This document shows positions 6,396 to 19,391 of a stretch of 64,000 nucleotides of DNA, in pieces. Under the pieces are notes generated by a model. That model did not search any database and was not told the DNA's origin. It saw nothing but the letters and a program-made list of their open reading frames with translations. The first letter of the stretch is position 1; each line of letters starts with the position of its first letter. A program made the position numbers and the translations under genes. Origin of the DNA: Aquimarina sp. MAR_2010_214 (GTDB lineage: Bacteria; Bacteroidota; Bacteroidia; Flavobacteriales; Flavobacteriaceae); contig NZ_PJMS01000001.1 of NCBI RefSeq assembly GCF_002846555.1, positions 4,193,501 through 4,257,500 on the forward strand, in the 5' to 3' direction.

Positions 6396-8969
6396 TTATT
6401 TAATCATTATTTTTTCTGAAATACTTCGATTTCCATCAGATATTGTTACAAAATAAATTCCTGATGTTATTCCTTCTAAAGAAATTTTGTTATCGGTTAC
6501 TACTCCTGATTTTATTATGCTGCCTTGCATGTTGGTCAACGTAAAATTACTGTCACGATCATCTTTCAAACTAATTTGAACATAAGTTGTAGCTGGATTA
6601 GGGTAGACTCTAGCCAAAAACACTTTATCTTCCTGTTCTAATTTTCCGTCAATTTTTATTGATGACGCTCCTTTTGCTCCTGTTGTTGATCCTATATTCA
6701 CAGTATAATCTTCTACTTCTCCATATCCAAAAGTCTCGCAAGATGTTGGCGCTCCATTCCACTTCATAGCAACTCGCATTCTGGTATTTCCAGACGTTGC
6801 TGTTGATGGTACATCAAAATTATATGATAGATTACCAGTATCTGATGTCGATCCACTTACTACTTTTTCAGCTCCTTCAAAAGTTCCGTTTTTATTAAAA
6901 TCAATCCACACTCCCCAATGTTCTGTGTAAGATGCACTTGCAAATCCAACACTTAATACAATAGTATTAGCCCCATAGCTTAGATTTGCTATTTGAGAAA
7001 TAAAATCACCATAACCAGCATTAGCTAATGTGGTGTTAGAGATTCCTCCTATTCCTACATAATCAATATACTCATATTTTACAGTATTCCCTTTTGACAG
7101 GCAGTAAGAAATCACCGTATCCAGAGTGGTTACTGCAACAGAATTACTTAATACAGAAGTATTTCCGACAGCATCAAATGCAGATATCTTAAATGTATAA
7201 TTCGTTCCTGTGGTTAAGCCAGACACATTATAAGTGCTTCCGGTAGTAGTTGTGAGTACTGTTCCATTTTGGTAAATCGTATATCCAGTAACCCCAATAT
7301 TATCGGTAGAAGCTGTCCAGGAAAGTTGTGTGCTATTTTTTGTAATATTAGAAGCCATTACATTACCAGGAATCGTTGGTGCTTCAGTATCTGAACCTGT
7401 ATTACCTCCTCCACTGAATGTATGCTTTCCCAGGCCATCAAAGGTATTACGAGGATATGAATTCCACTCAGATGTAGTATACGTTGAAGATGGTGATGAC
7501 ACTTCAGTTTTTCTTTGTAGAGTAGCATCCTTAGCAAAATTTGACGATCCTCCATTAAAAGTCCCTACTATATCTATTAAAACTCCATTTTTAAATAGCC
7601 CTACAGGATCATTACCATTAAAACTTAATTCTGAAGCCCCTGAAACCAAATCTGCTTCATTTTTAATAGTATTCGAAGCAGAACTATTAGCTGCTACATA
7701 AACATCGTTATTTGCTAAAACACCTGAAAGACTCAATCCTCCGGACCATGATCCAGAACCATTAGTTTGTCTTTTGATTACATATTCAGAAAGGTTAACC
7801 GATACTCCTGTGAAATTTGCAATTTCTAAAGCTTTATTATTCGAAGACCCTTCTATATATTCAGAAAAAAATAATGCTGTAGCATTACCGCCGGGTGAAG
7901 TGTTTTGAGTAGTGACACTAATCGTAGTACTTGCGGTAGATCTATTGCCTGCTGCATCTTTTGCCTTTACATAAAATGAATACGTAGTGTTGGCCGTTAA
8001 TCCAGAAACAATATAATTTGTTGTCGTTGTAGCGCTTAAAAATGTTCCATTCCTAAATACATCATATCCTGTTACCTCGACATTATCTGTAGATGCTCCC
8101 CAAGATAAGTTTGTAGAGATTTGAGTAGTATTTGCAGCAATCAGATTTGCAGGAATACTTGGAGCAACAGTATCACTACCTCCTGTATTCCCAAATCTAT
8201 CTTCGGCTTGAGGTCCGCCCCAAATTTGTGTAGCAAATGCAGGATTATCAATAAATGGATTTCTGTTACCCTGTATATTTTCAAGAATTGGATTACGTTG
8301 TAATTCTAATGGTGAGACAGGGTCCTCGGCATTCCACTCTAAAAATAACTGCAACATATTATTATCACTTGAAGCTGCTACTCCTACTCCAACATTTTTT
8401 GGTAAACAACGATTATTATAACGTATATACATATACATCATCATTCGAGCTACATCTCCTTTCCATTCATCACCAGGATACCAATGTCCTTGAGAAGTAG
8501 ATCCTGAATTACCCGATCCATCAGCAAATTTTCTATTTCCTCTGGATGAATTACGCTGTACATCTGCTGGTCGCAAGTGATGAGCATCTGCTCCTGGACC
8601 AGATGTTCCAAGGTTAGGATTACCCAATGATTTCGGATACACATGCTCTCTGTTCCAATCCGTAGAACCTCCCCCATTGTTATTGACTCCTCTTGTCCTG
8701 TCTGTATTAGAATTTCCATCAGTATCACTATACCCATAAATTAAAATAACCTTTGAAGGATCAGAAGGTTCTAAATCTGTCTGCTTTAATGCATTCCAAA
8801 CTCCAGGAGTATAACTAAGAAATGTAGTGTGCGTATTGGTCACTTTATCAACCAGTTCATTTTTTAATGCCGTTCCAGATAAAGTAAGATTTACATCACT
8901 ATAATATGATGGTATTTGACTATATCCTATAACAGGTATAGCCAATAATAAGAGAAATAACTTTTTCAT
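6396..8969 (-). CDS. Secreted multidomain endonuclease I with T9SS type A sorting domain
   Basis: 857 aa. A signal peptide (about 1-18) precedes an endonuclease I (NucM/Vvn-type) domain to about residue 260, with the catalytic patch WNREHVYPKS (about 105-114) and AHHLRP. Then come an FN3 domain (about 268-352), a lamin-tail-like domain (EYIEGSSNNKALEIAN onward, to about 520), a second FN3 (about 530-615), a GEVED domain (ending CETFGYGEVEDYTVNI), and a C-terminal type IX sorting domain starting VYPNPATTYVQI. The protein is probably exported and released or anchored at the cell surface, degrading extracellular DNA or RNA. It is monocistronic with its own terminator. Confidence 0.93.
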   Translation of the reverse strand: MKKLFLLLLAIPVIGYSQIPSYYSDVNLTLSGTALKNELVDKVTNTHTTFLSYTPGVWNALKQTDLEPSDPSKVILIYGYSDTDGNSNTDRTRGVNNNGGGSTDWNREHVYPKSLGNPNLGTSGPGADAHHLRPADVQRNSSRGNRKFADGSGNSGSTSQGHWYPGDEWKGDVARMMMYMYIRYNNRCLPKNVGVGVAASSDNNMLQLFLEWNAEDPVSPLELQRNPILENIQGNRNPFIDNPAFATQIWGGPQAEDRFGNTGGSDTVAPSIPANLIAANTTQISTNLSWGASTDNVEVTGYDVFRNGTFLSATTTTNYIVSGLTANTTYSFYVKAKDAAGNRSTASTTISVTTQNTSPGGNATALFFSEYIEGSSNNKALEIANFTGVSVNLSEYVIKRQTNGSGSWSGGLSLSGVLANNDVYVAANSSASNTIKNEADLVSGASELSFNGNDPVGLFKNGVLIDIVGTFNGGSSNFAKDATLQRKTEVSSPSSTYTTSEWNSYPRNTFDGLGKHTFSGGGNTGSDTEAPTIPGNVMASNITKNSTQLSWTASTDNIGVTGYTIYQNGTVLTTTTGSTYNVSGLTTGTNYTFKISAFDAVGNTSVLSNSVAVTTLDTVISYCLSKGNTVKYEYIDYVGIGGISNTTLANAGYGDFISQIANLSYGANTIVLSVGFASASYTEHWGVWIDFNKNGTFEGAEKVVSGSTSDTGNLSYNFDVPSTATSGNTRMRVAMKWNGAPTSCETFGYGEVEDYTVNIGSTTGAKGASSIKIDGKLEQEDKVFLARVYPNPATTYVQISLKDDRDSNFTLTNMQGSIIKSGVVTDNKISLEGITSGIYFVTISDGNRSISEKIMIK

Positions 8970-9398: not shown

Positions 9399-9584
9399 AT
9401 GAAAAAAATCTTAGATGTAACAGGAGTTCAAAAATTAAGTAAAGATCAACAACAGAATATTAAAGGAGCATGGGGACGTGCAACTTGTTGCCCAAGTGGG
9501 AGAGGGTGCCTTATTAGCTTTGGAAATCAAAGTTTTTGTGAACCTGGTCGTTGTGATCGTTGGGGACGTTGTATCTTTTACTAA
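9399..9584 (+). CDS. Cys-rich peptide precursor with double-glycine-type leader, copy 1
   Basis: 61 aa. The predicted leader (residues 1-24) has LSKDQQQNIKGA, which fits the LSxxxLxxIxG[GAS] spacing of double-glycine leaders: L at -12, S at -11, I at -4, G at -2, A at -1. The predicted 37-residue core starts WGR, is basic, and has six cysteines at core positions 6, 7, 13, 23, 28 and 34. It is likely exported after leader cleavage, as a bacteriocin-like or signalling peptide. A C39-type transporter would be needed, and none is in this window. It has its own terminator. The function is unknown; the architecture is clear. Confidence 0.75.
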   Translation: MKKILDVTGVQKLSKDQQQNIKGAWGRATCCPSGRGCLISFGNQSFCEPGRCDRWGRCIFY

Positions 9585-9602
9585 GAATACTTATAACCAT
9601 AT

Positions 9603-9632
9603 AAAAGACAGACTTTCGAGTTTGTCTTTTTT
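9603..9632 (+). terminator. Terminator after peptide copy 1
   Basis: A 12-bp stem AAAAGACAGACT / AGTTTGTCTTTT with one G-T pair and a TTCG tetraloop ends in a T-run. It lies 18 bp after the stop codon, so copy 1 is probably transcribed separately from copies 2 and 3. Confidence 0.88.
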
Positions 9633-9706
9633 GGTCATTAACAGTTCTAATCCTACAATACTTTTTTACAAACTTGAATTATTAACTTTTTTAAATATTT
9701 CGTATC

Positions 9707-9895
9707 ATGAAAAATATCATAAATCTAACAGGAGTCCAAAAACTATCCAAAAAAGAACAACAAGACATCAAAGGTTCTTGGGGTCGCAGAGTTTATTGTA
9801 AAGGTCCGAGACAATGTTGTTTTCGTCTTGCTAACGGATCAGAATTTTGCGATTATGGATATTGCCAATCTAATGGAAGTTGCATGTGGGCATAG
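9707..9895 (+). CDS. Cys-rich peptide precursor with double-glycine-type leader, copy 2
   Basis: 62 aa. The leader, residues 1-24, ends LSKKEQQDIKGS, with the same -12/-11/-4/-2 pattern and Ser at -1. The 38-residue core starts WGR with cysteines at 7, 13, 14, 24, 29 and 35. The last three keep the C-x4-C-x5-C spacing of the other copies, while the vicinal CC pair has moved from the first to the second cysteine position. It ends SNGSCMWA, as copy 3 does. A longer overlapping frame in the region is a shadow. No obvious terminator follows before copy 3. Confidence 0.75.
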   Translation: MKNIINLTGVQKLSKKEQQDIKGSWGRRVYCKGPRQCCFRLANGSEFCDYGYCQSNGSCMWA

Positions 9896-9986
9896 CTTCA
9901 CAAAAATGTAATATTATTTAACACTTTAAAAAACTGACTCACAACATTTTAAAGTATATTTAAATACTAACTTAAATATATATACA

Positions 9987-10163
9987 ATGAAAAGTATTTT
10001 AGAATTAACAGGAGTTCAAAAATTAAGTAAAGATCAACAACAACAAATTAAAGGAACATGGGGACGTGCCACCTGTTGTGGACCAAAAAAGTGTCGTGTT
10101 CCTGGAACAAGTTTTTGTGATTATGGATATTGCCGATCTAACGGAAGTTGTATGTGGGCATAA
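9987..10163 (+). CDS. Cys-rich peptide precursor with double-glycine-type leader, copy 3
   Basis: 58 aa, below common ORF-length cut-offs. The leader ends LSKDQQQQIKGT. The 34-residue core starts WGRATCC, as in copy 1, and ends SNGSCMWA, as in copy 2; cysteines are at core positions 6, 7, 12, 20, 25 and 31. At the DNA level the first half is nearly identical to copy 1 and the last third to copy 2. The upstream block AACTTAAATATA is shared with copy 1. A terminator follows 35 bp after the stop. Confidence 0.75.
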   Translation: MKSILELTGVQKLSKDQQQQIKGTWGRATCCGPKKCRVPGTSFCDYGYCRSNGSCMWA

Positions 10164-10198: not shown

Positions 10199-10230
10199 AA
10201 AGGATGTGCCTAAAAAGCCATCCTTTTTTT
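10199..10230 (+). terminator. Terminator after peptide copy 3
   Basis: The stem AAAGGATG / CATCCTTT is followed by a run of T to 10230. It closes the peptide-gene cluster. Confidence 0.82.
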
Positions 10231-15942: not shown

Positions 15943-17127
15943 TTATGCTAATAATTTGAATGATTGTTTAGCAATCTCTAATTCTTCATTAGTAGGAATA
16001 ACTAATATTTTTACTTTTGAAGAAGCTAAACTTATATCTCTTATTTCTTTAGATCGAATACTGTTCTTTTCTTCATCTAATTGAATACCAAAAAATTCTT
16101 GATCTTTACACACCAAGTCTCTAATCTTATCAGAGTTCTCCCCTATTCCAGCAGTAAATACAATAGCATCCAAACCGTTCATAATCGAAGCATATGCTCC
16201 GATAAATTTTTTGATACGATATGCATTCATTTGCAGCGCTAACTGGCAGTCTTTATTTCCTTTTTCCGCTTCAGATTCAATATCTCGTAAATCGCTATAC
16301 CCTGTTAATCCCAACATTCCACTTTCTTTTTGTAAGAGATCATTCACTTCTTTTAGTGAATATCCTAAGGAATTAACCATATAAAAGATCACTGCAGGAT
16401 CAATATCTCCAGACCGAGTTCCCATAATTAGGCCATTCATAGGTGCAAATCCTAAAGTATGATCAATACTTTTACCATCCTTAACAGCAGTCATACTACA
16501 TCCATTTCCTAAGTGGATTGTAATAATTCTGGATTTTTCTTTTCCTAAAAATTCTGTAGCTTTTTCTGAAACGTATTTATGACTGGTACCGTGAAAACCA
16601 TATACTCTGATATTATGCTCATCCAAAAATTTATTCGGAATAGCATATTTATGAGCTTCTACAGGAATGGTTTGATGAAAAGCTGTATCAAATACGGCTA
16701 CTTGTTGTGCGTCAGAAAAAATTTCTTCGGCAACCAAAATTCCTTCCAAATTTGCAGGATTATGTAATGGTGCTAACGCAGAAAGTTTTTTGATTTTTTG
16801 TTTTACTTCTTCTGTTATTTCAACTGTTTCTGCAAACGTACTTCCTCCATGAACCACTCTATGACCAACACTATGAATTTCTGATGCCGATCGAATCACT
16901 CCTACTTCATCATCCATCAAATAACTGGCAATTAATTGCAAACCATCTTTATGAGTATTCACACTCACCGTTTTTTCAATTTTGTTTACCTCAGATGCAT
17001 AGGAGATTTTAGCATTTTCTAGGCCTATCCGTTCTACTAGACCTGAACAAATCACTTTTGCATCGGGCATAGTAAATAATTGAAATTTTATAGATGAACT
17101 TCCAGAGTTTAGTACAAGTATTTGCAT
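15943..17127 (-). CDS. ackA: Acetate kinase
   Basis: Interconverts acetyl phosphate plus ADP and acetate plus ATP. 394 aa, the normal length. It begins ILVLNSGSSSIKFQLF (ASKHA phosphate-1 motif) and contains GHRVVHGGSTF, YGFHGTSHKYVSEKA, LGNGCSMTAVKDGKS and FTAGIGENS (adenosine motif). It is downstream of pta on the same strand with 49 bp between them, forming the standard Pta-AckA overflow and acetate pathway. Confidence 0.98.
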   Translation of the reverse strand: MQILVLNSGSSSIKFQLFTMPDAKVICSGLVERIGLENAKISYASEVNKIEKTVSVNTHKDGLQLIASYLMDDEVGVIRSASEIHSVGHRVVHGGSTFAETVEITEEVKQKIKKLSALAPLHNPANLEGILVAEEIFSDAQQVAVFDTAFHQTIPVEAHKYAIPNKFLDEHNIRVYGFHGTSHKYVSEKATEFLGKEKSRIITIHLGNGCSMTAVKDGKSIDHTLGFAPMNGLIMGTRSGDIDPAVIFYMVNSLGYSLKEVNDLLQKESGMLGLTGYSDLRDIESEAEKGNKDCQLALQMNAYRIKKFIGAYASIMNGLDAIVFTAGIGENSDKIRDLVCKDQEFFGIQLDEEKNSIRSKEIRDISLASSKVKILVIPTNEELEIAKQSFKLLA

Positions 17128-17176
17128 ATTTTTTTTAGAGTTTAGAGTATAAAATCAGGCATTTCTTCACTTTGTT

Positions 17177-19270
17177 TTATAATCCCTGAGCCTGAATTGC
17201 CGTTATAATTACAGTATTGTATACATCATCAACAGTACATCCTCTACTTAAATCATTTACAGGTTTATTCAACCCTTGTAACATTGGGCCAATGGCTAAT
17301 GCTCCTGTTTCTCGTTGAATAGCTTTATAGGTATTATTTCCCGTATTTAAATCAGGAAATATCAAAACACTTGCTTGACCCGCTACTTCAGAATTTGGTA
17401 ACTTACTTTGTCCCACTTCTAAATCTACTGCTGCATCATATTGTATAGGCCCTTCAATTTTTAGATCAGGGTGTTTTTCTTTTACAATAGCAGTTGCTTC
17501 CCTAACAATTTCTACATCTTCTCCTTTACCAGAGGTTCCTGATGAATATGATAACATTGCTACTTTTGGTTCAATCCCAAACGCTGCTGCAGATTCTGAA
17601 GAAGAAATTGCTATTTCTGCCAATTGTTCTGCATTAGGATTCGGATTAATTGCGCAATCACCAAAAACTGATACTCGATCTTCTAAGCACATAAAAAATA
17701 CAGAAGAAACAACTTTTACTCCTGGTTTGGTCTTTATAAATTGTAAAGCTGGTCTAATTGTATGTTGTGTTGTATGCACCGCTCCCGAAACCATTCCGTC
17801 TGCGTGACCTTTATATATCATCATTGTACCAAAATAGGACACATCTGCCATCATATCTTTAGCCATATCCAGGTTAACATTTTTGTGCTTTCTTAACTCA
17901 TAAAATGTTTGTACATAATCGTCATAATAAGGGGATTCTGTGGGTAAAACAATCTGTATTTTATCAAAATCTATTTGAATATCCAGCTTTGTGGCTTTGT
18001 TCTTTATTTTCTTTTCACTTCCGATTAAAGTAATATCTACAACTCCTGAAGCTAACAGTCTGGAGGTAGCTCTTAATATTCTTTCATCTGATCCTTCTGG
18101 AAGAACAATATGCTTTTTATGTTTTAGAGCACGCTTTAATAAATTATATTGAAACATTCGTGGGGTTAACCCTTCTGACTTAAATGTTATCAGTTTATCT
18201 GCTAATTGATCTTCATTAACATATTTTTCGAATATGCTAATTGAGGTGTTTATCTTTTGTAAATTATCTAGATAAATTTTGGATTTAATTGCTCCTATTT
18301 CATTGGTAATAGCAAATGTACCACTAGGCACTGATATAATAGGGAAAGACAAAGAGACACCTTCTATTAATTTTAGTATTGGTGGTTCGGGAATAATTCC
18401 TCCGGTAAGTATAATTCCAGAAATTTTCGGATAATTATTAGAAATATTTGCTTGCAATACCCCTAAAATAATATCTGCACGATCTCCCGGAGTAATTACA
18501 AGACTGTTATCCTTAAGATGAGTAAGATAGTTGCGTAATTGCATTGCTCCCACTCCAAAGTTCCCAGCCTGGTTATTAAGATATTCTTTCCCAAACAATA
18601 CATTTCCTTCCAATTTATTTACAATCTCTTTGATCGTAGGATTAATTAGAGAATTGACTTTTGGAATAATAATACGGTCGACAGTATTTCCAAAGTTTTT
18701 TTCAAAACTACTTTCTAATTGTTTTTCACAACTTTGGGTAACCTTATTTGCTACCATAGCCAAAACTTCTACATCTTTACTATTAAAAGTATCATATGCC
18801 AGTTTTAAATTACTAACAATTTCATCATTTTGCTTATCAATTCCACTTGCAACAATAACAGCTGGGATACCCAGGTTTTTAGCAATAATGACATTAATAT
18901 CAAACTCAATGATATTACCTTCATCAGAAAAATCAGTACCTTCTACTAGTATAAAATCGAATCTTTCTTCAAGGTTTTTGTACTTCCTTATAATCTCATC
19001 TATAATCTCTCCTGATTTACCCTGATTGTATTTTTGAAGCACTTCACTTCTTGTATACGCATAGGCTTTTTTGAAGTTAATATCTAGCTCAAAATGCGAT
19101 ATTACAGTATTGATATGGTTATCAACTTCTCCTTCTTTAGGGTCGTCAATAATTGGTCTAAAATACCCTACTCTGGCTACTTTACCCAGAAGCATACGCA
19201 TCATACCTAAAACAACAATAGATTTACCACTATTAGGTTCTATAGTAGCAATATAAACGGCTTTACTCAT
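17177..19270 (-). CDS. pta: Phosphate acetyltransferase
   Basis: Converts acetyl-CoA plus Pi to acetyl phosphate plus CoA. 697 aa, the long three-domain form: an N-terminal P-loop-like domain (SKAVYIATIEPNSGKS), a central DRTGG domain (about 210-330), and a C-terminal PTA_PTB catalytic domain (from about 370) with HIVLPEGSDERILRA and SYSSGTSGKGEDVE. The longest frame opens at a TTG (19279). The ATG at 19270 gives the usual MSKAVYIA start and is chosen here. It leads the pta-ackA operon. Confidence 0.97.
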   Translation of the reverse strand: MSKAVYIATIEPNSGKSIVVLGMMRMLLGKVARVGYFRPIIDDPKEGEVDNHINTVISHFELDINFKKAYAYTRSEVLQKYNQGKSGEIIDEIIRKYKNLEERFDFILVEGTDFSDEGNIIEFDINVIIAKNLGIPAVIVASGIDKQNDEIVSNLKLAYDTFNSKDVEVLAMVANKVTQSCEKQLESSFEKNFGNTVDRIIIPKVNSLINPTIKEIVNKLEGNVLFGKEYLNNQAGNFGVGAMQLRNYLTHLKDNSLVITPGDRADIILGVLQANISNNYPKISGIILTGGIIPEPPILKLIEGVSLSFPIISVPSGTFAITNEIGAIKSKIYLDNLQKINTSISIFEKYVNEDQLADKLITFKSEGLTPRMFQYNLLKRALKHKKHIVLPEGSDERILRATSRLLASGVVDITLIGSEKKIKNKATKLDIQIDFDKIQIVLPTESPYYDDYVQTFYELRKHKNVNLDMAKDMMADVSYFGTMMIYKGHADGMVSGAVHTTQHTIRPALQFIKTKPGVKVVSSVFFMCLEDRVSVFGDCAINPNPNAEQLAEIAISSSESAAAFGIEPKVAMLSYSSGTSGKGEDVEIVREATAIVKEKHPDLKIEGPIQYDAAVDLEVGQSKLPNSEVAGQASVLIFPDLNTGNNTYKAIQRETGALAIGPMLQGLNKPVNDLSRGCTVDDVYNTVIITAIQAQGL

Positions 19271-19391
19271 GTATAACAATTTGGTTAGTGCAAAGATACG
19301 CTAATACCGTAATTTAACATAAGATCAATGTATAATAAAACTTCTTTCTATCATAGTCATACAATATTAACAATTCAATTTCCATTTCAGC

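Follow-up and report, generated by a model that had tools for sequence, protein, structure and literature searches.

The 64,000-nucleotide stretch of the Aquimarina sp. MAR_2010_214 genome analysed here (contig NZ_PJMS01000001.1, positions 4,193,501 to 4,257,500; hereafter referred to as the window) carries, at positions 9399 to 10163, three tandem genes for short cysteine-rich peptides with double-glycine-type leaders. We propose, with a probability of roughly 0.6, that a C39-peptidase ABC exporter cuts and exports these peptides, that a membrane VKOR-thioredoxin enzyme oxidises them while its own cysteine-free C39-fold domain holds the leader, and that their likeliest role is antagonism of other microbes. 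Observed directly were the type of leader, six conserved cysteines, all machine parts in the genome and, in other genera, the adjacency of such peptides to a VKOR fusion and an exporter. By analogy, the peptides are likely secreted, because the same leader type heads cysteine-rich peptides beside a VKOR-type enzyme and an exporter in relatives. Disulfide bonds are predicted to lock them, and other microbes may be their target.

Precursor peptide 1 (9399..9584, + strand; 61 residues, six cysteines) consists of a 24-residue leader (9399..9470, + strand, reading ...LSKDQQQNIKGA), with C39 cleavage predicted after GA, and a 37-residue mature core (9471-9581). Precursor peptides 2 (9707..9895, + strand; 62 residues) and 3 (9987..10163, + strand; 58 residues) likewise have six cysteines each, with leaders at 9707-9778 and 9987-10058 and cores at 9779-9892 (38 residues) and 10059-10160 (34 residues). 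A preliminary description of this DNA had given the three open reading frames (ORFs) the same overall span and lengths, and had correctly noted L(-12), S(-11), I(-4), G(-2) and A/S/T(-1) in every leader and basic six-cysteine cores that start with WGR and end in C-x4-C-x5-C. Net charges of the three cores are +3, +3 and +4, and the predicted mature monoisotopic masses, three disulfides assumed, are 4181.79, 4394.80 and 3743.52 Da. Two core types occur in the family: CC-x5-C, variants of which are found in peptides 1 and 3, and C-x5-CC, found in peptide 2, whose core has WA at its end.

A profile search of other genomes found relatives with the same leader-core split; 129 non-redundant ones, taken from fetched loci at E≤1e-10, make up the family set. 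Exactly six cysteines are present in 127 of them, the other two looking like one damaged copy and one copy cut by the end of its locus. Leaders end in GA in 82, GS in 37 and GT in 6 members, and the median net core charge is +2. WGR does not characterise the family, as only 23 members begin their core with it. The supposedly constant ending holds for the three window peptides but not strictly for the family, where the exact C-x4-C-x5-C spacing is kept in 92 members and a looser C-x4-C-x4-11-C in 128. The idea of a conserved leader and a variable core was right in that mean pairwise identity is 64% in leaders versus 43% in cores. However, the six cysteines are kept and the core is under purifying selection, and the core is therefore no free-running variable region: the median ratio of nonsynonymous to synonymous substitution rates (dN/dS) of gene 1 is 0.094 against 43 relatives, some of whose genomes are counted twice (Nei-Gojobori, pairs with dS < 2). 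Judging from the sequence comparisons, the three ORFs are real genes, and calling their products bacteriocin- or effector-like, as was done before, is a fair guess.

Fifty-one of 66 Aquimarina genomes have a match to the family model (48 of the 58 good ones). Among 31 proteins found as best relatives, all 17 with a source label come from Aquimarina; source labels of 47 named loci are Aquimarina in 43 cases, Flavobacteriaceae bacterium in two and Bacteroidia metagenome-assembled genome in two. Two of these relatives are 98% identical to gene 1, and arrays in the fetched loci have one to six members. The three peptides gave no match to Pfam or PADLOC families at E≤1. The NCBIfam model NF047798 (leader_Chryseo, bacteriocin-like protein), which likewise describes a flavobacterial GG-type leader, was matched only weakly, with 13.3 bits for peptide 1 and 10.2 bits for peptide 3, under the curated cut-off of 23.5; peptide 2 was not listed. 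The structure model of the peptide is of low confidence (pLDDT 65, about 75 in the core). A Foldseek search with it returned nothing at E≤0.001, and the best PDB sequence match was weak (E 0.07). The structure-match lists name no disulfide-peptide family for the core, an absence that excludes nothing. A hevein-like reading of the C-x4-C-x5-C end was rejected, as the spacing, compared by eye, does not fit.

Bacterial VKOR proteins fused to other domains are known from surveys. The fusion considered here is a membrane protein that combines a cysteine-free C39-fold domain with VKOR and thioredoxin domains. The window's genome has a single VKOR gene, and this gene encodes such a fusion and is followed by two six-cysteine leader peptides (L118:6664-8735, at about 1535.7-1537.7 kb of G000:C1, outside the window; the fusion gene itself is at L118:7101-8735). 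A model made from the leaders of the window family only was used to search the VKOR loci of the genus. It revealed 25 leader peptides in 15 of the 31 loci, with E down to 2e-9, all of them on the VKOR strand and 23 downstream of the VKOR gene. The same search of 30 PheT comparison loci revealed none. The VKOR fusion of L118 is the best candidate for the machine.

Another protein family was observed in several loci. A DUF6734 protein (PF20508, E 2.5e-95 for L120) is encoded at L120:6017-7554, and ORFs similar by eye are present in L119, L127 and L132. In L119, L120 and L127 this ORF lies between a GGYTG-type precursor and the VKOR fusion, while in L132 it adjoins a C39 exporter. The arrangement reads as a sister operon whose leader is of another type.

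Outside the genus, the family-wide leader search matched at least 26 genomes (at least 29 of 397 when three of the genus are included); no more than 16 candidates were scored in each genome. Among the best 26 other-genus loci, 12 contain a homologue of the VKOR fusion, seven an exporter more than 50% identical to that of the window's genome, and 14 either of the two; neither was found in 30 PheT comparison loci, all from Aquimarina. Fourteen larger other-genus loci were fetched, six for a C39 gene already seen and eight for the number or strength of their matches. In eight of these Flavobacteriaceae loci the VKOR fusion comes first, followed by one to five cysteine-rich leader peptides, the C39 ABC exporter and HlyD. 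The exporters in the eight are 66-77% identical to that of the window's genome. As for the other six, L256 lacks VKOR but has an orthologue of the exporter next to the leader class, L261 and L262 contain VKOR and peptides only, and L260, L264 and L266 have neither VKOR nor exporter. The C39 type of the leader, proposed in the preliminary description, is supported, and other genera carry this leader type beside C39 exporters. In L257, L258, L263 and L265 the operon is flanked by the genes that also flank the VKOR gene of the window's genome, so the exporter part appears to have been moved or replaced in Aquimarina.

Two further observations concern these loci. Two full-length six-cysteine relatives are encoded in another genus at L260:7777-8239, with no VKOR or exporter gene in the 16 kb fetched. 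At L259:4259-4848, near the VKOR operon and on the opposite strand, lie three near-identical cysteine-free peptides with a GG leader (…GGDEEPLPEPYPSKGNGGNGST).

In the window's genome all parts of the machine are present but dispersed, and none adjoins the array. The exporter (L021:8696-10900) has C39, transmembrane and ABC domains and is 28.5% identical to the other C39 exporter of the genome. A leader model (A3) made from 18 diverse leaders gave 31 matches in the genome down to E 10, the leader of peptide 1 being the top match (E 9.2e-14). ORFs were read out for the best 26, down to E 0.36. Twenty-five of the 26 contain cysteine, in even number in every case, with six cysteines in 13; the p value of this parity, 3e-8, is an upper claim because paralogues are not independent. 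We infer that the dispersed genes use the VKOR/C39 machine in trans. Five weaker matches of the A3 model (E 1.7e-4 to 5.1) with a shorter leader, 'NLGK.LSK..QK.INGG', are grouped at G000:C1:2323821-2325435.

In the mechanism we propose, the exporter's C39 domain would read the leader; the oxidase's dead C39 domain would probably read it too, holding it on the cytoplasmic side. VKOR and thioredoxin would pass disulfides to the core on the periplasmic side. The C39 exporter would cut the leader and export the core, with release through HlyD and an outer-membrane channel acting together with the exporter.

Several findings weigh against this proposal. The exporter of the window's genome lies 3 kb from grasp-with-spasm genes that have precursors of their own, and because of this position it may serve those precursors instead. 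No leader match was found in 21 Aquimarina C39 loci, nor within about 1.5 kb in 16 of the 31 VKOR loci, and in L154, L160 and L161 the VKOR proteins were found without a C39-like part in frame. All three window peptides have Gln at leader position -7, where C39 rules want a hydrophobic residue; since ...EQQxI.GG is also what other genera have in their leaders next to VKOR and C39 exporters, the leader class seems to differ at this position. Cysteine parity is weaker outside the genus, with even counts in only 33 of 41 leader peptides. Presence of the family tracks both VKOR (51 of 51 genomes with the family versus 3 of 15 without; Fisher p 9e-11) and C39 (51 of 51 versus 7 of 15; Fisher p 1e-6). 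However, the family-free genomes are mostly phylogenetically distant (13 of 15 with at most 71% PheT identity; of the other two, one has 79% and one gave no PheT match), so presence and absence provide no independent evidence, and we set them aside as proof of a link. Finally, none of the neighbours common to 48 loci (the window and 47 named ones) was recognised as a dedicated immunity gene.

The last point also bears on the role of the peptides. They could be exported and disulfide-bonded as proposed and yet act as signals or enzyme inhibitors. The low dN/dS of the core, the occurrence of the family at a syntenic locus in most genomes of the genus and the missing immunity-like neighbour would together be less usual in an arms race. 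On the other hand, arrays hold several divergent paralogues with basic cores, and no receptor gene was seen. Bacteroidetocin producers, too, have no immunity gene (PMC6671954), and its absence here therefore does not decide the role. We consider signals or inhibitors unlikely, though worth keeping in mind.

It is more doubtful still that C39 export is right but that other periplasmic enzymes or air oxidise the window peptides, the VKOR fusion serving only the peptides adjacent to it. The window family is indeed not adjacent to VKOR in its own genome, and its leaders have A/S/T at -1 versus mostly GG in leaders beside VKOR. Yet one leader model matches both groups with E values down to 2e-9, and the genome offers just one VKOR gene.

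The window peptides could also be precursors of ribosomally synthesized and post-translationally modified peptides (RiPPs), modified in trans by one of two other clusters of the genome, both with C39 exporters of their own. One is a LanC-type cluster (L020, G000:C1:4144000-4162000), which also encodes HlyD and several precursors with GG leaders; the other contains the grasp-with-spasm genes (L021, G000:C1:4712000-4730000). Scores exceed the curated cut-offs both for the LanC-family marks and for the grasp-with-spasm ones, TIGR04192 and TIGR04193. This origin is very unlikely: none of the 31 A3 matches falls on precursors of either cluster, even cysteine counts fit disulfides, and the other-genus operons contain the VKOR fusion and no RiPP maturase recognised among their labelled genes, the labels coming from nine reference proteins. 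Least probable of all would be peptides that resemble exported ones by shared descent only and stay inside the cell, for example to bind metal; the cysteine-rich basic cores and the lack of an adjoining transport gene in the window would fit, but the C39 cut site G-A/S/T, needless in an internal peptide, is near-complete (125 of 129), and the same leader class adjoins exporters elsewhere.

For the proposed export and oxidation of the window peptides, the closest known system is that of the bacteroidetocins, proposed class IIf bacteriocins of Bacteroidales, which work alike; leader length and gene arrangement place the window peptides outside that group. According to PMC6671954, both systems have a small cysteine-containing peptide, a double-glycine leader and a C39-peptidase ABC transporter, and bacteroidetocins need a multi-transmembrane protein and a thiol oxidoreductase for full activity, their disulfides being inferred. 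Bacteroidetocins, which kill Bacteroidales, have a 15-residue leader, a mature peptide of about 42 residues and four (at least two) cysteines, compared with 24, 34-38 and six here. Their genes form a four-gene region (peptide, transmembrane protein, thiol oxidoreductase, C39 transporter), whereas the window array lacks the other three and analogous genes lie elsewhere. In the system described here the VKOR-type membrane part and thioredoxin are fused, with an added C39-fold domain; bacteroidetocins have a separate five-transmembrane protein. HlyD is present, and the peptide genes are dispersed, about 25 per genome, in Flavobacteriaceae.

The leaders follow the L(-12), I(-4), G(-2) and G/A/S(-1) rules for C39/PCAT (AMS) transporters in PMC6363468, where the C39 protease LahT150 prefers Leu at -7. 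They depart from these rules in the Gln at -7 and in the GT ending, which is outside the GG/GA/GS list given there. Unlike in C39/PCAT transporters, a second, cysteine-free C39-fold domain is carried here by the oxidase and not by the transporter. The C39-like domain of HlyB (PDB 3zua, 8dck) differs in that the domain here is fused to an oxidase and is assumed to bind a leader instead of a folded substrate. Searches of open-access PMC papers found none that names the peptide family or a VKOR-C39 fusion, and none containing both words VKOR and C39; nothing bearing on the peptide/VKOR system stood in passages of PMC8939145 and PMC10352776 or in a reference entry of PMC5524665.

More broadly, and tentatively, at somewhat less than an even chance, these genes may belong to a dedicated Flavobacteriaceae line of oxidative-folding secretion, in which a leader-reading dead C39-VKOR-thioredoxin protein and an exporter serve about 25 scattered disulfide-locked peptides in trans, like a venom repertoire, each core being oxidised while the exporter cuts and releases it. 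If true, this would account for production of disulfide-rich secreted peptides in Bacteroidota, tell what one class of VKOR fusions does and reveal that a dead protease has been put to new use on an oxidase, reading leaders. The leader motif could then be used to find a large pool of stable small peptides, this one genome having 26 leader ORFs, and the role of orphan double-glycine peptides would become directly testable.

Across the 48 loci, the common neighbours of the array are ordinary flanking genes without an exporter, and a bacteriocin cluster around the array was rejected. The conserved left neighbour, an endonuclease-like protein of 857 residues (6396..8969, - strand), has a homologue in 36 of the 48 loci. 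On the right, two ORFs (15943..19279, - strand), named by eye as acetate kinase and phosphate acetyltransferase, have homologues in 32 loci each. These neighbours are outside the system.

A promoter scan gave fewer matches than in shuffled sequence. A consensus terminator scan of the region listed none, the hairpins 3′ of genes 1 and 3 included. These terminator-like hairpins, each with a T run, are located at 9604..9632 (+ strand; UUCG loop, -12.3 kcal/mol, z -3.84) and 10199..10230 (+ strand; -10.8 kcal/mol, z -4.11); unlike genes 1 and 3, gene 2 has no such stable hairpin and T run downstream. Gene 1 is probably its own transcript, and from the position of the hairpins genes 2 and 3 may share one.
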